This document shows, one piece after another, positions 29,704-36,610 of a stretch of DNA of 64,000 nucleotides. How positions within the stretch are numbered: the first letter of the stretch is position 1; every line of letters starts with the position of its first letter. The notes under the pieces are model-generated. The model was not told the origin of the DNA. It did no database searches and saw only the letters and a list, made by a program, of their open reading frames with translations. The stretch covers positions 310,001 through 374,000 of the forward strand of contig NZ_JAVFWN010000001.1 of NCBI RefSeq assembly GCF_030929495.1, given 5' to 3'. Source of the DNA: Nocardioides sp. LHD-245. GTDB lineage: Bacteria; Actinomycetota; Actinomycetes; Propionibacteriales; Nocardioidaceae. The translations under genes were made by a program, and so were the position numbers.

Positions 29704-29732
29704 GTGTGACACCGGTCATCCGGTGTTACACT
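29704..29732 (+). promoter_or_regulatory. Operator palindrome and -10 box of the toxin-antitoxin operon
   Basis: GTGTGACACCGG (29704-29715) and CCGGTGTTACAC (29720-29731) form a dyad with one mismatch and a 4-nt spacer. The right arm contains TACACT (29727-29732), a -10 box 6 nt before the ATG at 29739. A repressor bound here would block RNA polymerase, the usual autoregulation of type II toxin-antitoxin loci. The operon appears leaderless. Confidence 0.7.
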
Positions 29733-29738
29733 TGGCGC

Positions 29739-30008
29739 ATGCCCACCGTCCGCCCGCGCCACGCGATCACCGAGACCGACGCGGTCACCGCTGCGCTCGA
29801 GGCCGCGGCGCGCAAGTGGCCGGAGGACCGGGACCGGCCAGCGCGGCTGCTGGCTCACTTGGTCGAGGTCGGGTTCCACGCGATCGAGGTCGAGCTCGAC
29901 GAGAAGGCGCTCGCGCGGCGTCGGGCGCTGGAGCAACTCGCAGGTTCGCTGACGGGCGTCTATGAGCCGGGCTATCTCGATGCTCTGCGGGCTGAGTGGC
30001 CCGATTGA
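29739..30008 (+). CDS. Antitoxin of a PIN-domain toxin-antitoxin pair
   Basis: 89 residues, acidic and helical. No clear ribbon-helix-helix or AbrB motif is visible, although PTVRPRHAITETDAVTAALE could form the DNA-binding part. Identification rests on size, overlap with a PIN-domain gene and the operator-like palindrome upstream. The ATG at 29739 is 6 nt after TACACT; an in-frame ATG 33 nt earlier lies inside the operator and is less likely. It should neutralise the toxin and repress the operon. Confidence 0.75.
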   Translation: MPTVRPRHAITETDAVTAALEAAARKWPEDRDRPARLLAHLVEVGFHAIEVELDEKALARRRALEQLAGSLTGVYEPGYLDALRAEWPD

Positions 30009-30415
30009 TCGCACTTGACGCGAACGTGCTCATCGCCGTGACGGACGAACGCGACTCTCACCACCAGGCTGCGAAGAGCCTCCTTGCAGAGCACCTCGAT
30101 CGCGAGTTGGTGATCGGTTCGGTGAACCTTGCGGAGGTGCTGGTCGGTCCGGCAAGGGTGGGGCGAGTCGAACAGACCTTGATGCACCTGTCTCGAGTCG
30201 GCGTCACGGAGCTGCCTTTGCCGGGTGGCGCGGCACCTCGGCTTGCGGTGCTCCGGGCTTCGACAGGTCTCAAGATGCCGGATTGCTGTGTCCTGTTGAC
30301 CGCACAGCATGCCCGGGCAGCGGTCGCCACCTTCGACCGGCGACTCCGCGCCGCCGCTCGCTCCCTCGGTCTCGCCGTCCTTCCCGATGACGACGACCCG
30401 GATCCGCGGAGTTAG
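29996..30415 (+). CDS. vapC: PIN-domain ribonuclease toxin (VapC-like)
   Basis: 139 residues. The four acidic PIN residues are all present: Asp8 (ALDANVLIA), Glu47 (NLAEVL), Asp96 (KMPDCCVLL) and Asp114 (ATFDRRL). It is therefore likely an active Mg-dependent endoribonuclease cleaving tRNA or rRNA. The GTG at 29996 overlaps the antitoxin by 13 bp; a TTG at 30005 (TTGA junction) is an equally plausible coupled start. Its TAG stop is the first half of the next -10 box. The pair sits between gatB and the B12-regulated operon. Confidence 0.85.
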   Translation: MARLIALDANVLIAVTDERDSHHQAAKSLLAEHLDRELVIGSVNLAEVLVGPARVGRVEQTLMHLSRVGVTELPLPGGAAPRLAVLRASTGLKMPDCCVLLTAQHARAAVATFDRRLRAAARSLGLAVLPDDDDPDPRS

Positions 30416-30418
30416 ACT
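30413..30418 (+). promoter_or_regulatory. -10 box (TAGACT) of the cobalamin riboswitch transcript
   Basis: TAGACT includes the stop codon of the PIN toxin and lies just before the P1 stem of the riboswitch (30422), putting the RNA start near 30425. No consensus -35 was found. Confidence 0.5.
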
Positions 30419-30421
30419 CCG

Positions 30422-30553
30422 CAGGACACATCGAGAACACGCCCGTGGTGGGGGAAGCCGGTCCGATCCCGGCGCTGACCCGCAACCGTGGACCGCCTCT
30501 ACGACATCAGTCGTGGGAGCGGTGAGCCGGAGCACCTGCCGCGGCGCGTCCTG
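30422..30553 (+). ncRNA. Cobalamin (B12) riboswitch aptamer
   Basis: The closing stem pairs CAGGAC (30422-30427) with GTCCTG (30548-30553). Inside are the conserved core GGGGGAAGCCGGTCC, then GGCGCTGACCCGCAACCGT (30471-30489), and the 3' B12-box GAGCCGGAGCACCTGCC (30524-30540). These are the invariant blocks of class I cobalamin riboswitches. It binds adenosyl- or methylcobalamin and turns down the downstream genes, so the five genes that follow are predicted to be induced on B12 starvation. Confidence 0.95.
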
Positions 30554-30560
30554 ACACAAC

Positions 30561-30629
30561 GCTGTCGTGGAAAGCAGCGGGTCAGCGGCACAGGAATCTG
30601 GGCCCGCCCGCTGTCGTGCAGCGGGAAGG
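30561..30629 (+). promoter_or_regulatory. Riboswitch expression platform: ribosome-site sequestering hairpin with competing arm
   Basis: CCCGCTG (30607-30613) pairs with CAGCGGG (30619-30625), and the GGGAAGG ribosome site (30623-30629) starts inside that stem. A second CAGCGGG at 30575-30581 could pair with the same CCCGCTG and free the ribosome site. The 9-base GCTGTCGTG is also repeated (30561-30569, 30610-30618). This is a translational on/off switch by mutually exclusive pairing; which form cobalamin favours is inferred. Confidence 0.6.
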
Positions 30630-30635
30630 CCCCAC

Positions 30636-32132
30636 ATGTCCCCCCGTTCTCTCGTACGCCGCACGGTCGCTGCCGTCGCCGGCGGTGCCGTCGTCGCCGG
30701 CGGCCTGATGGCCGTCGCGCCCGTGCCGGCGACCCATGCAGCGCCCGCCGCCCCGAGCGCCGAGGCGAGCGCTGCCGCAGCGTGGCTGGACGGTCGCGTT
30801 GCCGGCGGCCTGATCGACGGCAACGTCAGCGTCACCATGGACTACGCCCTGAGCCTCGACGCGACCGGTCTCGACACCCCGGCGCGGGTCGGCGGGCTCG
30901 TAGCCGGCGTCGACGGCGGTCTGGCGGACTACCTGGCCGGTGCCTTCGACCGCGACGCCAGCACGGCGAAGGCGGCCTACTTCTACGCCGCCATGGAGCA
31001 GGACCCCCGCGACGCCGCCGGTCTCGATCTCGTGGCCGACACCGAAGGCGCGCTCGACGCCGAGGGGCGGCTCGGTGACAGTGGCGTCTACGGCCAGGCG
31101 TGGGCAGTACTCGCGCTGAACGCGGCCGGCAGCGACGACGCGGGCGTGGCGACGGAGGCGCTCATCGACGACCAGTGCGCCGACGGCGCCTGGGGCTGGA
31201 GCTGTGCCGGTGGCCAGGACATCGACTACACCGCCTACAGCCTCCTGGCGCTGCGCGCCGCGCCGGCCACGCCGGCGACTGCCTCGGCCATCTCATCCGC
31301 TGTCGCGTTCCTGAAGTCGAAGCAGGGCGCCACCGGCGGATTCGGGGACAGCGGCGACCCGACGGACGCCTTCTACACGCCCGACAACGCCAACACCACC
31401 GGACTGGCCGCCTGGGCCCTGGGCGCGTCCGGCGAGACCGAGCGCGCGGCGCGGGCGTCGAGCTGGATCGCCGCTCACGAGGTCGTCGCACTGGCCGGCT
31501 GCGGCCGTGGTCTCGACGCCGACCACGGCGCCATCGCCTACTCCGCCGTGACGCTGAAGGAGGCTGTCGACGCGGGCGGCGTCCCGGCCGAGGTGACGGA
31601 GGAGTGGACTCTCGCCAGTGCCCAGGCCCTGGCCGGCCTCGCGTACCTCCCGGCGGCACAGCCCACCGTTCCCACCACGTTCGTCGACGCCGGTACGACG
31701 ACGAGCATCGCGCTCGCGGGCGCCCGCGCCGGCCAGCAGGTCTGCGTGACCGGCCTGGGGGCTCCTCAGCGGCTGATTTCCCCGGCCTCGGCGACCTTCG
31801 CGGTCCCGGCCGGCACCGCCGACCACGCGGTCACGGTGACGTACCTCGGCGGCAGCACGACGACGACCGTCAAGGCACTCGACGCCACCAAGCTCAAGGT
31901 CAAGGTCCCGTCGACCATCAAGGCGAAGAAGAAGGCCACGATCAAGGTCAAGGGTCTCGCGGCCGGCGAGCCGGTCACCGTCAAGGTCGGCAAGAAGACC
32001 GCGACCGGGACGGCCAACGCCAAGGGCGTCGCGAAGGTCAAGGTCAAGGTCAAGAAGAAGGGCAAGGCCAAGGTCAAGGTGGTCGGCGCGTTCCCCGACC
32101 GCAAGGGCAAGGCCACGACCCGGGTCCGTTGA
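30636..32132 (+). CDS. Secreted alpha/alpha-toroid protein, candidate cobalamin-binding (transcobalamin alpha-domain-like)
   Basis: 498 residues. Signal peptide of about 35 residues (cleavage near THA-AP). Residues about 40-345 are repeated helical pairs with the small-residue motif of prenyltransferase/squalene-cyclase toroids: GVYGQAWAVLALNAAG, DYTAYSLLALRAA, NTTGLAAWALGASGE. Catalytic Asp motifs of terpene cyclases are not evident. An Ig-like stretch and a very lysine-rich tail (about 415-498) follow, suited to binding cell-wall polyanions. The same toroid fold forms the cobalamin-binding alpha domain of animal transcobalamin and intrinsic factor. Directly under a B12 riboswitch and ahead of an ECF transporter, corrinoid capture is the likely role (inference). 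Confidence 0.8.
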   Translation: MSPRSLVRRTVAAVAGGAVVAGGLMAVAPVPATHAAPAAPSAEASAAAAWLDGRVAGGLIDGNVSVTMDYALSLDATGLDTPARVGGLVAGVDGGLADYLAGAFDRDASTAKAAYFYAAMEQDPRDAAGLDLVADTEGALDAEGRLGDSGVYGQAWAVLALNAAGSDDAGVATEALIDDQCADGAWGWSCAGGQDIDYTAYSLLALRAAPATPATASAISSAVAFLKSKQGATGGFGDSGDPTDAFYTPDNANTTGLAAWALGASGETERAARASSWIAAHEVVALAGCGRGLDADHGAIAYSAVTLKEAVDAGGVPAEVTEEWTLASAQALAGLAYLPAAQPTVPTTFVDAGTTTSIALAGARAGQQVCVTGLGAPQRLISPASATFAVPAGTADHAVTVTYLGGSTTTTVKALDATKLKVKVPSTIKAKKKATIKVKGLAAGEPVTVKVGKKTATGTANAKGVAKVKVKVKKKGKAKVKVVGAFPDRKGKATTRVR

Positions 32133-33016
32133 TGACCCTCGGCAGCTCTCTGCGCGCGGCGGCCGCGACGATCCTCGTCGCGGCCACTGCCGTGCTGCTC
32201 CCGCAGGGTTCCGCCTCTGCGGCGGCCTGCGGGGGCGCGACCGGCATCACCGTCGTCGTCGACTCCAACCAGCTCGGCGCCGGCATCAGCGCCGGCTGTG
32301 ACGCGGACGGTGGTGGCACAGCGGCCGGCAACTTCGCGGACGCCGGCTACACGATCGAGTACAGCCAGGCCGCCGGCATGAACGGCTTCGTGTGCAAGGT
32401 CAACGGCAGCCCGTCCGACGGCGACTGCACGGAGACCGACGCCTACTGGAGCCTGTGGTGGTCCGACGGGAGGTCGGGGACCTGGACGTATGCCGCCCGC
32501 GGCGTCGGTGGCCTCCGGGTCCCGGATGGCGGGTATCTCGCGTTCGCCTGGCACCAGGGCGGTGGCCGGGCAACCCCGCCCGACGTGGCGCCGACGCCGC
32601 GGATCGCGGAGCCCAAGCCCTCGCCGACGCCGTCCGCCGCAGGCGGGGCGGGCAGCGGCGACAAGAAGAAGCCGTCCGCTGCCACCAAGAAGCCCACGCC
32701 CAAGCCGGCGCCGTCGGCGAGCGCGACCTCCGCGTCTCCGACCCCGAGTCCCAGCGCGGGGACGACGCCGAGTGCGACCGACCCGTCGGCGTCGCCCTCG
32801 GACGCGGCCACGTCGGCGACACCGACCGCTGTGCCGAGCGCGAGCGCGAGCACTGGCGTGCCGTCGATCGACGAGATCACGGACGGCCCCGAGGCGACGT
32901 CCGCGGACGTGGACGAGAAGGACGACGGCGGATTCCCGGCCTGGCTGGGCATCGGCCTGGTCGTCGTCGTGCTGGGCGCGGCTGCGGCCGTCCCGGTCCT
33001 CCGCCGCCGGGCCTGA
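32132..33016 (+). CDS. Surface-anchored DUF4430-like beta-domain protein
   Basis: 294 residues. Signal peptide of about 31 residues. Residues about 32-140 resemble the DUF4430 beta-grasp-like domain: a GITVVVDSNQLG strand, two cysteine pairs, and YWSLWWSDGRSGTWTYAARG with the glycine/aromatic pattern of the family. A Pro/Ser/Thr/Ala-rich spacer (about 140-262), one membrane helix (about 267-288) and RRR follow, tethering it to the membrane across the wall. In transcobalamin the C-terminal beta domain is DUF4430-related and closes over B12; here it is a separate protein. Start and preceding stop overlap by one base (TGATG). Confidence 0.78.
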   Translation: MTLGSSLRAAAATILVAATAVLLPQGSASAAACGGATGITVVVDSNQLGAGISAGCDADGGGTAAGNFADAGYTIEYSQAAGMNGFVCKVNGSPSDGDCTETDAYWSLWWSDGRSGTWTYAARGVGGLRVPDGGYLAFAWHQGGGRATPPDVAPTPRIAEPKPSPTPSAAGGAGSGDKKKPSAATKKPTPKPAPSASATSASPTPSPSAGTTPSATDPSASPSDAATSATPTAVPSASASTGVPSIDEITDGPEATSADVDEKDDGGFPAWLGIGLVVVVLGAAAAVPVLRRRA

Positions 33017-33033: not shown

Positions 33034-34130
33034 ATGAGGCTGGCCCGGGACCTGCACCCCGTGGCCTGGTGGGCGTGGGCGGTGGGGCTCGCGGTCGCGG
33101 CGTCCTGCACCACCAACCCGCTCCTGCTGCTGGTCCTGCTCGGCGTGATCACCCTCGTCGTGCTGACCTGTCGCTCCGACCAGCCGTGGGCGCGCTCGTT
33201 CCGGCTCTACGTGTGGCTCGGCGTGGTCGTGGTCGTGGTCCGGATCCTGTTCCGGGTCGTGCTCGGCGGCGACGTGCCCGGCCACGTGCTCCTCACCCTG
33301 CCCACGATCCCGCTGCCGGACTGGGCCGCGGGCATCTCGCTGCTCGGCCCGTTCACCCGCGAGGAGCTGCTCGCCGCGACGTACGAGGGCCTGCGCCTGG
33401 CGACCCTGCTCATCGCGGTCGGCGCGGCCAATGCCCTGGCCAACCCGAAGCGGCTGATGAAGTCGCTGCCGCCCGCCCTCTACGAGATCGGTACGGCGAT
33501 GACGGTCGCCATCAGCGTCGTCCCGCAGCTCGCCGACAGCGCGCGGCGGGTGCGGGCCGCGCAGCAGTTGCGCGGGGGACCGCAGGGTCGGTTCCGCCGG
33601 ATCCGCGGAGTACGACGGCTGCTGGTCCCGATCCTCGAGGACTCCTTCGACCGCTCGCTGGCCCTGGCCGCCGGGATGGACGCCCGCGGGTACGGCCGCA
33701 CCGGTGAGCTGACCGCCGCCCAGCGGCGCGGCACCGGCGCGCTGATCATCGCCGGGCTGCTGGGCGTCTGCGTCGGCGTCTACGCCTTCCTCGACAGCAC
33801 CGCGCCGCGGGTCCTCGCCCTCCCGATGCTCGCCGTCGGCACGCTCGTCGCGCTCGGCGGCTTCGCGCTGGCCGGCCGACGGGTGCAGCGCACCCGCTAC
33901 CGCCCTGACCGCTGGCAGGTCCCCGAGATCGTGGTCGCCGCGTCCGGGATCGCCGCAGGTGCGGGGATGTGGGCGCTCCAGCGCTGGGAGACGCTGATCG
34001 CGCACCCCGGCGTTCTGGTCCGTCCCGACGTGTCGCTGCTCGCCCTGGTCGCCGCACTGGTCGCGGTGCTCCCGGTGTGGGCGGCCCCGCTGCCGGTGAC
34101 CGCGCGGCGCCGCGAGGAGGCGCTGGTCTG

Positions 34131-34131
<1 letters not shown>
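33034..34131 (+). CDS. ecfT: ECF transporter transmembrane T component
   Basis: 365 residues with about 6-8 hydrophobic segments, longer than the usual 260 because of an extra C-terminal membrane pair (about 290-350). The family core is clear: ANALANPKRLMKSLPPALYEIGTAMTVAI and, in the cytoplasmic coupling helices, AGMDARGYGRTG with the Ala-Arg-Gly motif that docks on the ATPases. Related to CbiQ, but no CbiM or CbiN is present, so this is not a cobalt importer of that type. It begins 17 bp after the DUF4430 protein and overlaps the ATPase gene by one base. Confidence 0.9.
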
Positions 34132-35779
<1,648 letters not shown>

Positions 35780-35783
<4 letters not shown>

Positions 35784-36610
35784 CCGGGTCCACCGAGCGG
35801 GGCCGCCCGGCCGCGGTGCCGCTCCGGCTGCGCTCGGGCGCGGTGCTCGCGATCACCTCGGTGATCGGGCTGCTCATGCTGGCCTGGCCGCTGCTCCTCG
35901 ACGTCTCGCCCGACGCCGGGCGGGTCGACCCGCCCTTCCTCTTCCTCCTGTTGCTGCCGGTGATCCTCGGCGTGGTCCTCGCCGAGATGAGCGAGGGCGG
36001 CATGGACGCGCGGGTGCTCGCGGTGCTCGGCGTCCTCAGCGCGGTCAACGCCGTGCTGCGCCTGGCCAGTGCCGGCACGGCGGGCCTGGAGCTGGTCTTC
36101 TTCCTGCTGATCCTCGGCGGCCGGGTCTTCGGTGCCGGCTTCGGGTTCGTGCTCGGGTGCACGTCGTTGTTCGCCTCGGCGCTGATGACGGCCGGGGTCG
36201 GTCCGTGGCTGCCCTTCCAGATGCTCGTCGCCGCCTGGGTAGGCATGGGTGCCGGCCTGCTGCCGCGCCGGGTCCGCGGTCGCGGTGAGATCGCCCTGCT
36301 CACGGCGTACGGCGTGGTGTCGGCCTATCTCTACGGGCTCCTGATGAACCTCCAGGGATGGCCGTTCATGGCGGGCGTGCAGGTGCCGGGCCAGGACTCC
36401 ACCGAGATCTCCTACCTCCCGGGCGCTCCGCTGCTCGACAACCTGCACCACTTCGTCGTCTACACCCTGCTGACCTCGACCGGCGGCTGGGACACCGGGC
36501 GCGCGATCACCAACGCGCTCGCCATCGTGCTGCTCGGTCCGGCCGTGCTGGTCACGCTGCGCCGGGCGGCCCGCCGCGCCCGGATCGCCCCGGAGCCCGC
36601 GCCCCGCTGA
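35780..36610 (+). CDS. ECF transporter substrate-binding S component, predicted corrinoid-specific
   Basis: 276 residues with about 6 membrane segments. A long loop before the last helices (FMAGVQVPGQDSTEISYLPG) and the motif FGAGFGFVLGCTSLFASALMT typical of S components are present. Specificity cannot be read from sequence, but control by a cobalamin riboswitch and co-transcription with the toroid and DUF4430 proteins point to cobalamin or its precursors. Starts GTG within the ATPase stop (GTGA). Last gene of the operon; a GC-rich hairpin follows. Confidence 0.85.

Follow-up and report, generated by a model that had tools for sequence, protein, structure and literature searches.

A probable translational cobalamin riboswitch of Nocardioides in which two identical arms can pair with the same strand

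The window analyzed here is a stretch of 64,000 nucleotides from Nocardioides sp. LHD-245, and it carries on its forward strand a probable cobalamin riboswitch leader followed by an operon. The first regulated gene (gene 1, 30636-32132), whose start codon fits the aligned relatives, is predicted to encode an alpha/alpha barrel with beta domains, while the structure model of gene 2 (32132-33016) predicts a transcobalamin beta-domain-like fold with a C-terminal helix. Both products have signal-like N-termini by eye, and a gene 2 homolog follows gene 1 in all 28 loci examined. Downstream lies an ECF transporter (33034-36610) made up of a T component (33034-34131), a double ATPase (34131-35783), and an S component (35780-36610). 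By sequence, the likeness of gene 2 to transcobalamin was found in neither Pfam nor PDB. Searching with its model (mean pLDDT 69; about 80-94 over residues 41-150), we obtained transcobalamin, haptocorrin, and intrinsic factor in 15 of the first 16 Foldseek rows, with one row only at E ≤ 0.001 (7qbe_C, 9.9e-4), and the comparison with the lone beta domain 5no0 gave a TM-score of 0.66 on the target (E 2.4e-3). The barrel of gene 1 (pLDDT 90) is closest to terpene cyclases (Z about 25), followed by glycosidases (about 20), transcobalamins (4zrp_A, Z 17.5, 3.5 Å over 237 residues), and prenyltransferases (about 17), and, since other barrel families match too, its transcobalamin likeness is not specific; ranked by E-value, Foldseek placed complement, ICAM, and other Ig-type chains on top, with low TM-scores. 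Genes with such folds, lying between a B12 aptamer and an ECF transporter, suggest an operon for cobalamin capture and import. Genes 1 and 2 (30636-33016) could be a transcobalamin-like pair, with barrel and beta domain on separate proteins, ahead of the transporter.

Upstream of the leader, a short ORF and a PIN-domain protein (29706-30415) are possibly a toxin-antitoxin pair. The aptamer itself (RF00174, 30430-30557) was identified with cmscan in E-value mode, matching the full length of the model (positions 1-189) at 31.3 bits (E 3e-6). This is slightly under the curated cut-off, a gathering score of 31.5, and an Rfam scan of the window at that score gave no match. Among the five loci scanned, L123 (37.1) and L029 (33.7) lay above the cut-off, the window's own leader (L002) and L020 (30.0) below it, and L010 had no RF00174 match at E ≤ 0.01. 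The conserved core and the B12-box region are present in the Rfam alignment of the window aptamer and in the leaders of relatives, although the latter were retrieved with a core pattern and hold the core by selection. The aptamer is a short form without the long P8-P12 region, for which it has 20 nt vs. 58 positions in the Rfam model. It thus lacks the P8-P12 extension that serves as a criterion for class I cobalamin riboswitches (PMC11260477), and may belong to class II. A full-text search of an open-licence library found no paper that mentions a cobalamin riboswitch together with Nocardioides, and in the 220 nt after each of the four other RF00174 matches of the same genome we saw by eye no platform such as the one described here.

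Directly after the aptamer comes a P13-like hairpin, in which arm 1 (CGCTG, 30560-30564) is the 5′ strand and pairs with arm 2 (CAGCGGG, 30575-30581) around the loop L13 (UCGUGGAAAG, 30565-30574). Its outer stem consists of CUGAC (30551-30555) and GUCAG (30581-30585), a pairing assessed by comparing cis with permuted duplexes. Arm 2 is therefore either the 3′ strand of P13 or, with arm 3 (CCCGCTG, 30607-30613), an antisequestor, and arm 3 is able to pair instead, as a sequestor, with arm 4 (CAGCGGG, 30619-30625), which overlaps the start of the Shine-Dalgarno sequence (SD) GGGAAGG (30623-30629). These roles of arms 2, 3, and 4 were assigned from the sequence and from the covariation and pairing tests given below. 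In the minimum free energy fold, GGGCC (30600-30604) pairs with 30628-30632 as the outer part of the SD hairpin. The preliminary description of this DNA had listed the two CAGCGGG copies, the single CCCGCTG, and a second repeat, GCTGTCGTG, at 30561-30569 and 30610-30618, and every one of these coordinates proved exact. It had not noticed that arm 2 doubles as the 3′ strand of P13 (arm 1·arm 2), which would couple arm 2 to the aptamer. Its proposal that control is exerted on translation rather than on transcription looks right, as the SD lies within the hairpin of arms 3 and 4 (3·4) and a simple consensus scan for intrinsic terminators gave no terminator-like site in 30350-30750. Taken alone, the repeat pattern is modest evidence, and it is conservation that decides: when 30540-30640 was shuffled 5000 times with dinucleotides preserved, a 7-mer, its complement, and the 7-mer again arose in 2 shuffles and a repeated 9-mer, like GCTGTCGTG, in 142, and the GC-rich window itself has the 7-mer arrangement in 80 of 6390 overlapping stretches of 101 nt.

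To compare relatives, we searched with the gene 1 protein and obtained matches in 76 of 145 genomes, the window's own counted. Leaders were recognized by a pattern that required the B12 core and CGCTG-(U/C)-CGNGG; 81 came from the gene 1 loci and 73 further regions, of which 75, the window's included, are different, six duplicates having been dropped. The pattern gave no leader in 21 of the 73 extra regions, several of which are second genes of tandem pairs or region repeats. As CGCTG is built into the pattern, the presence of arm 1 in 75/75 leaders is no evidence. L13 starts with UCG-N-GG in 71/75 (the pattern required CGNGG only), GGAAGG occurs in 64/75 (SD-like motifs belonged to the search pattern), and the spacing from arm 2 to arm 4 ranges between 15 and 43 nt. 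A second hairpin unit is present in 73/75, the other two, L020 and L025, having one short hairpin directly before the SD. L004 was missed by the pattern though its arms are perfect, and is outside every count. Also missed was L018, which in the 400 bases before gene 1 is without a recognizable B12 core, yet has an intact CAGCGGGAAGG ahead of the start codon. In a separate group (L116, L122, L126, and L132), the SD hairpin is shifted (CCTTCC/GGAAGG), and GUCGG/CCGAC may provide the alternative pairing of arm 2.

As for distribution, L001 is Nocardioides carbamazepini, listed in Nocardioidaceae, and a pattern search across the order gave matches in 63 of 245 genomes. We inspected 10 of the 12 matches that lay outside the family, and none adjoins a recognizable aptamer; of eight inspected in other genera of the family, seven (L150-L156) have the platform and one (L157) does not. 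The platform is thereby found in two other genera of the family, with further ones from a class-wide search with the model R1, which matched 49 of 296 genomes at E ≤ 0.01. Of the 18 R1 matches inspected, 11 are in the family and follow a core of the CCGCA(A/G)CCG type; by eye, no core of this type precedes the seven outside it, of which a loose pattern flagged L186 and L199.

We then asked, in the 73 two-hairpin leaders, for one 7-mer that ends 2-6 nt before arm 4 and forms at least 6 of 7 pairs, G-U included, both with arm 2 and with arm 4. The preliminary description had named lack of conservation of the arms in homologs as what would refute the switch; instead, such a 7-mer is present in 54/73 leaders, compared with 7.5 on average and never more than 16 in 300 sets whose middle regions had been shuffled. 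All seven pairs with both arms are possible in 30 leaders (shuffled mean 0.6, maximum 3). When a loop of at least 3 nt is demanded (a gap of 3-6 nt), 48 leaders remain at 6/7 or better (null mean 6.0, maximum 13) and 25 at 7/7 (0.5, maximum 3). The leaders that fail number 19/73 at 2-6 nt and 25/73 at 3-6 nt, and the close relatives L001, L005, and L006 pass only with a mismatch in arm 3. Two other versions of the test were discarded. Choosing arm 3 without regard to position, by how well it pairs with arm 4, discriminated poorly, with at least 6/7 pairs to both arms in 58/73 leaders vs. 46% of shuffled GC-rich middles, and a first position-limited test (56/73; shuffled mean 10.1, maximum 18) let arm 3 touch arm 4, where the hairpin cannot form.

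Duplex energies point the same way. Arm 2 binds the middle region of its own leader better than those of others (-10.54 vs. -9.82 kcal/mol, the fraction as low being 0.0016), also in the 26 leaders in which it is other than CAGCGGG (-10.20 vs. -8.50 kcal/mol), and so does arm 4 (-16.47 vs. -15.00 kcal/mol). When arm 3 was picked by its fit to arm 4 only, its pairing with arm 2 (2·3) averaged 6.288 of 7 pairs, compared to 6.061 with arm 2 permuted among the 73, and none of 2000 permutations was as high. The outer P13 stem covaries as well (-5.67 kcal/mol in cis vs. -5.07 after permutation, a value matched in 5 of 3000 permutations for the cis set), with CGAAC/GUUCG in L010 and CUGACC/GGUCGG in L014 as examples.

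For column-wise covariation we used alignment A4, that is, the 26 of 73 rows in which arm 3 ends 3 nt before arm 4 and makes at least 6 pairs with it, a choice that favors 3·4 and, arms 2 and 4 being alike, 2·3 too; alignment A1, with all 73 rows, misaligns arm 3 and was left out of the counts. For 2·3, 97.2% of cells are paired, and three pairs and six cells are changed on both sides (shuffles 0.9 and 1.3; 0/500 as high). For P13 together with 3·4, 90.4% of cells are paired and 28 are changed on both sides (shuffled 11.2; 0/500 as high), whereas the number of both-side-changed pairs (3) and that of pair types (11) are within the shuffles (143 and 500 of 500 as high). Helices slid out of register had 28-70% of cells paired. 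On single measures some of these controls exceeded the true helix: for P13 with 3·4, the -1 and +3 slides have 4 both-side-changed pairs, and +3 more pair types (13), and for 2·3 the -3 slide has a covariation score of 0.247 vs. 0.174 and 6 pair types vs. 5, with 64.8% of cells paired. In these 26 selected rows, both helices thus covary beyond shuffles on most measures, which is what the preliminary description had proposed looking for among relatives. Arm 1·arm 2 is nearly invariant on A4 and hence says little. These counts are not counts of independent events; the gene 1 tree covers 28 of the leaders. In a variant group, arm 3 reads CTCGCTG or CTCGTTG, position 6 of arm 4 is A, and arm 2 has either A or a G that forms a G-U pair; 11 leaders in all have this A in arm 4, and 6 have A in arm 2. 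Few leaders of this group are on the gene 1 tree, which places L027, L029, and L031 together, so the A-U rows at position 6 may be a single lineage and independent events may be few. All in all, the pairing and covariation tests agree that one strand, arm 3, can pair with the 3′ strand of P13 or with the SD strand. The earlier idea that two arms vie for one strand, with the SD buried or freed, was borne out by computation, and both pairings are kept and covarying in relatives.

We next compared the energies of an OFF arrangement (1·2 with 3·4) and an ON arrangement (2·3 with 1·4). In nascent RNA reaching to the end of arm 3, 2·3 beats P13 in 53 of the 54 leaders of the joint test, and in the window by -29.0 vs. 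-20.8 kcal/mol. With the full platform, 24 of these 54 leaders, which were chosen for having both pairings, favor OFF and 29 favor ON; the means are -35.8 and -36.3 kcal/mol, and in 35 leaders the states are at most 3 kcal/mol apart. The ON model has the freer SD in 38/54 leaders, while 12 show no difference and 4 the reverse. Over all 73 leaders, for which the energies rest partly on doubtful choices of arm 3, nascent 2·3 is more stable in 57 and full-platform OFF in 35, with means of -32.9 (OFF) and -33.1 (ON); 52 have the freer SD in ON, 15 show no difference, and 6 have it in OFF. For L005, the SD is no more accessible in ON than in OFF. For the window, the full platform favors OFF by 3.6 kcal/mol (-40.3 vs. 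-36.7), and the equilibrium fold of the platform is OFF only, with a probability of about 1.0 for 3·4. Switching in the window would therefore have to be kinetic. Folding successive prefixes gave P13 until 30608, 2·3 at 30612-30624 with 1·4 appearing at 30624, and 3·4 from 30628, so the ON state of the window is predicted to be transient and the finished RNA to be OFF. RNA folding, another check proposed beforehand, supported the switch in part: prefix folding visits 2·3 and then 3·4, whereas at equilibrium only OFF is obtained, and switching is not visible in minimum-energy folding by itself. Forcing arm 2 to pair either upstream or downstream, a loose constraint, told the states apart poorly: the accessibility of the SD was 0.19 in OFF and 0.35 in ON (shuffled 0.33 and 0.38), and it differed by more than 0.3 in 13/73 leaders vs. 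8.3% of shuffles.

From the computed arms, their conservation, covariation, and energies, we infer a ligand response and its direction, a kissing contact, and translational control, and we consider it likely that the platform is that of a translational OFF cobalamin riboswitch with the 3′ strand of P13 as antisequestor. Cobalamin would hold the aptamer folded, so that the adjoining P13 occupies arm 2, presumably stabilized by contact between L13 and the loop L5 (UCCGAUC, 30462-30468, placed by the Rfam alignment and relatives). Arm 3, left free, would pair with arm 4 and hide the SD of the operon. Without ligand, P13 would not be held, and arm 2 could capture arm 3 as soon as this is transcribed; 2·3 would leave the SD open, arm 1 could pair with the first part of arm 4, and translation of the operon would follow. 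As to the putative kissing contact, at least 3 contiguous L5-L13 pairs are possible in 60/75 leaders with Watson-Crick pairs and in 72/75 with G-U included. This exceeds shuffled L13 (0/100 as high) and does not exceed permuted partners, which scored as high in 260 and 263 of 300 permutations, and no L5-L13 covariation was found across leaders. The likeness of arms 2 and 4 would follow from their having to fit the same arm 3, which brings the two states close in energy in many relatives. Tentatively, we would go further and see here a switch that works by strand exchange, each of its four arms having either a single sequence or the complement of it. {1·2, 3·4} and {2·3, 1·4} would be near in energy, so that slight help from the ligand-bound aptamer while the RNA is being transcribed tips the balance, and the antisequestor would closely copy the SD arm whose place it takes. 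Coupled changes in three strands would have preserved this design in at least three genera of a single family.

Other readings of the platform have to be weighed against a translational OFF switch. When the whole window leader is folded, arm 2 pairs neither with arm 1 nor with arm 3 but with the aptamer core, through an exact 11-nt complement (30473-30483 with 30577-30587), a pairing that would leave the SD hidden without ligand. An ON switch could be built on it, in which ligand frees arm 2 for arm 3 and so opens an SD that 3·4 otherwise hides. However, a complement of at least 9 nt occurs in only 4/75 leaders, the window and its close relatives L001, L005, and L006, and we read it as a local peculiarity or a folding trap. 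Moreover, in the bound state arm 2 would be held by the P13 hairpin, and an uptake operon is unlikely to be activated by its own substrate, all of which makes an ON switch very improbable.

The outcome at equilibrium, where the window platform ends OFF, would also suit a static SD hairpin, with 3·4 just keeping expression low and the likeness of arms 2 and 4 having no role in switching. This is hard to reconcile with the covariation of arm 2 with the middle region and with the better fit to their own middles of the 26 leaders with a variant arm 2, and we give it little credence. Equally small is the chance we assign to regulation that is mainly transcriptional, by Rho-dependent termination once translation is blocked, the platform acting indirectly only. 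Such termination has been suggested beside the translational platform of Mycobacterium tuberculosis metE (PMC11260477), but the conserved element here is an SD hairpin, and the terminator scan of 30350-30750 found no intrinsic terminator.

A further claim of the preliminary description, that the switch arose by local duplication, found no support as far as a recent event is concerned. The loop TCGTG of the second unit in the window is absent in L001 and L004-L007 and is outside the conserved pattern, and the second-unit loop is a prefix of L13, short ones included, in 15/73 leaders. On the gene 1 tree (28 proteins), the single-hairpin leaders L020 and L025 sit within otherwise two-hairpin groups (7 rows, 99/98; 5 rows, 100/98), so the short form looks derived, by deletion, and not ancestral; the tree asks for two changes to it, and one is possible. 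As the loop is not shared, the short forms are nested, and the platform occurs in other genera, a recent duplication does not explain the arms. Selection on the shared partner strand, arm 3, would suffice to explain their likeness, and an ancient duplication of the arms is possible. The compact leaders themselves (L020:1448-1500 and L025:3142-3193) are without the second hairpin and probably represent natural deletions.

The logic of the window platform is already known from published platforms, and its particular trait is that arms 2 and 4 are identical in sequence. In the translational OFF switch of M. tuberculosis metE, an anti-TIR hides the ribosome-site strand unless the anti-anti-TIR pairs with it, and the loop of the anti-anti-TIR hairpin can alternatively contact L5 (PMC11260477); the TIR, anti-TIR, and anti-anti-TIR follow the same logic as here. 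It differs in that about 60 nt separate anti-anti-TIR and anti-TIR, against the 15-43 nt between arms 2 and 4, that its authors see a class I switch whereas the aptamer here is short, that the use of one heptamer for both arms is particular to the present platform, and that other genes are regulated (PMC11260477). In P. megaterium, the unbound metE corrinoid riboswitch uses a portion of the 3′ side of P13 as partner for the 5′ strand of a downstream hairpin, but that hairpin is a transcription terminator and not an SD hairpin (PMC10653944). Escherichia coli btuB and env8HyCbl, as described in the same source, are likewise translational cobalamin riboswitches in which P13, held by L5-L13, favors a closed ribosome site, and other models given there involve alternative structures with aptamer bases or other platform parts (PMC10653944). 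L020 and L025, with one hairpin adjoining the SD, may be closer to direct designs of the btuB/env8HyCbl type. The passages considered from PMC9600662 bear no further on this platform logic.

The leader thus offers a clear natural example of a riboswitch platform for which dozens of compared leaders back each of the two alternative pairings, and it points to the regulated genes as a probable system for cobalamin capture and uptake. The natural deletions L020 and L025, together with the variant arms, are a ready set for testing platform energies against the response.
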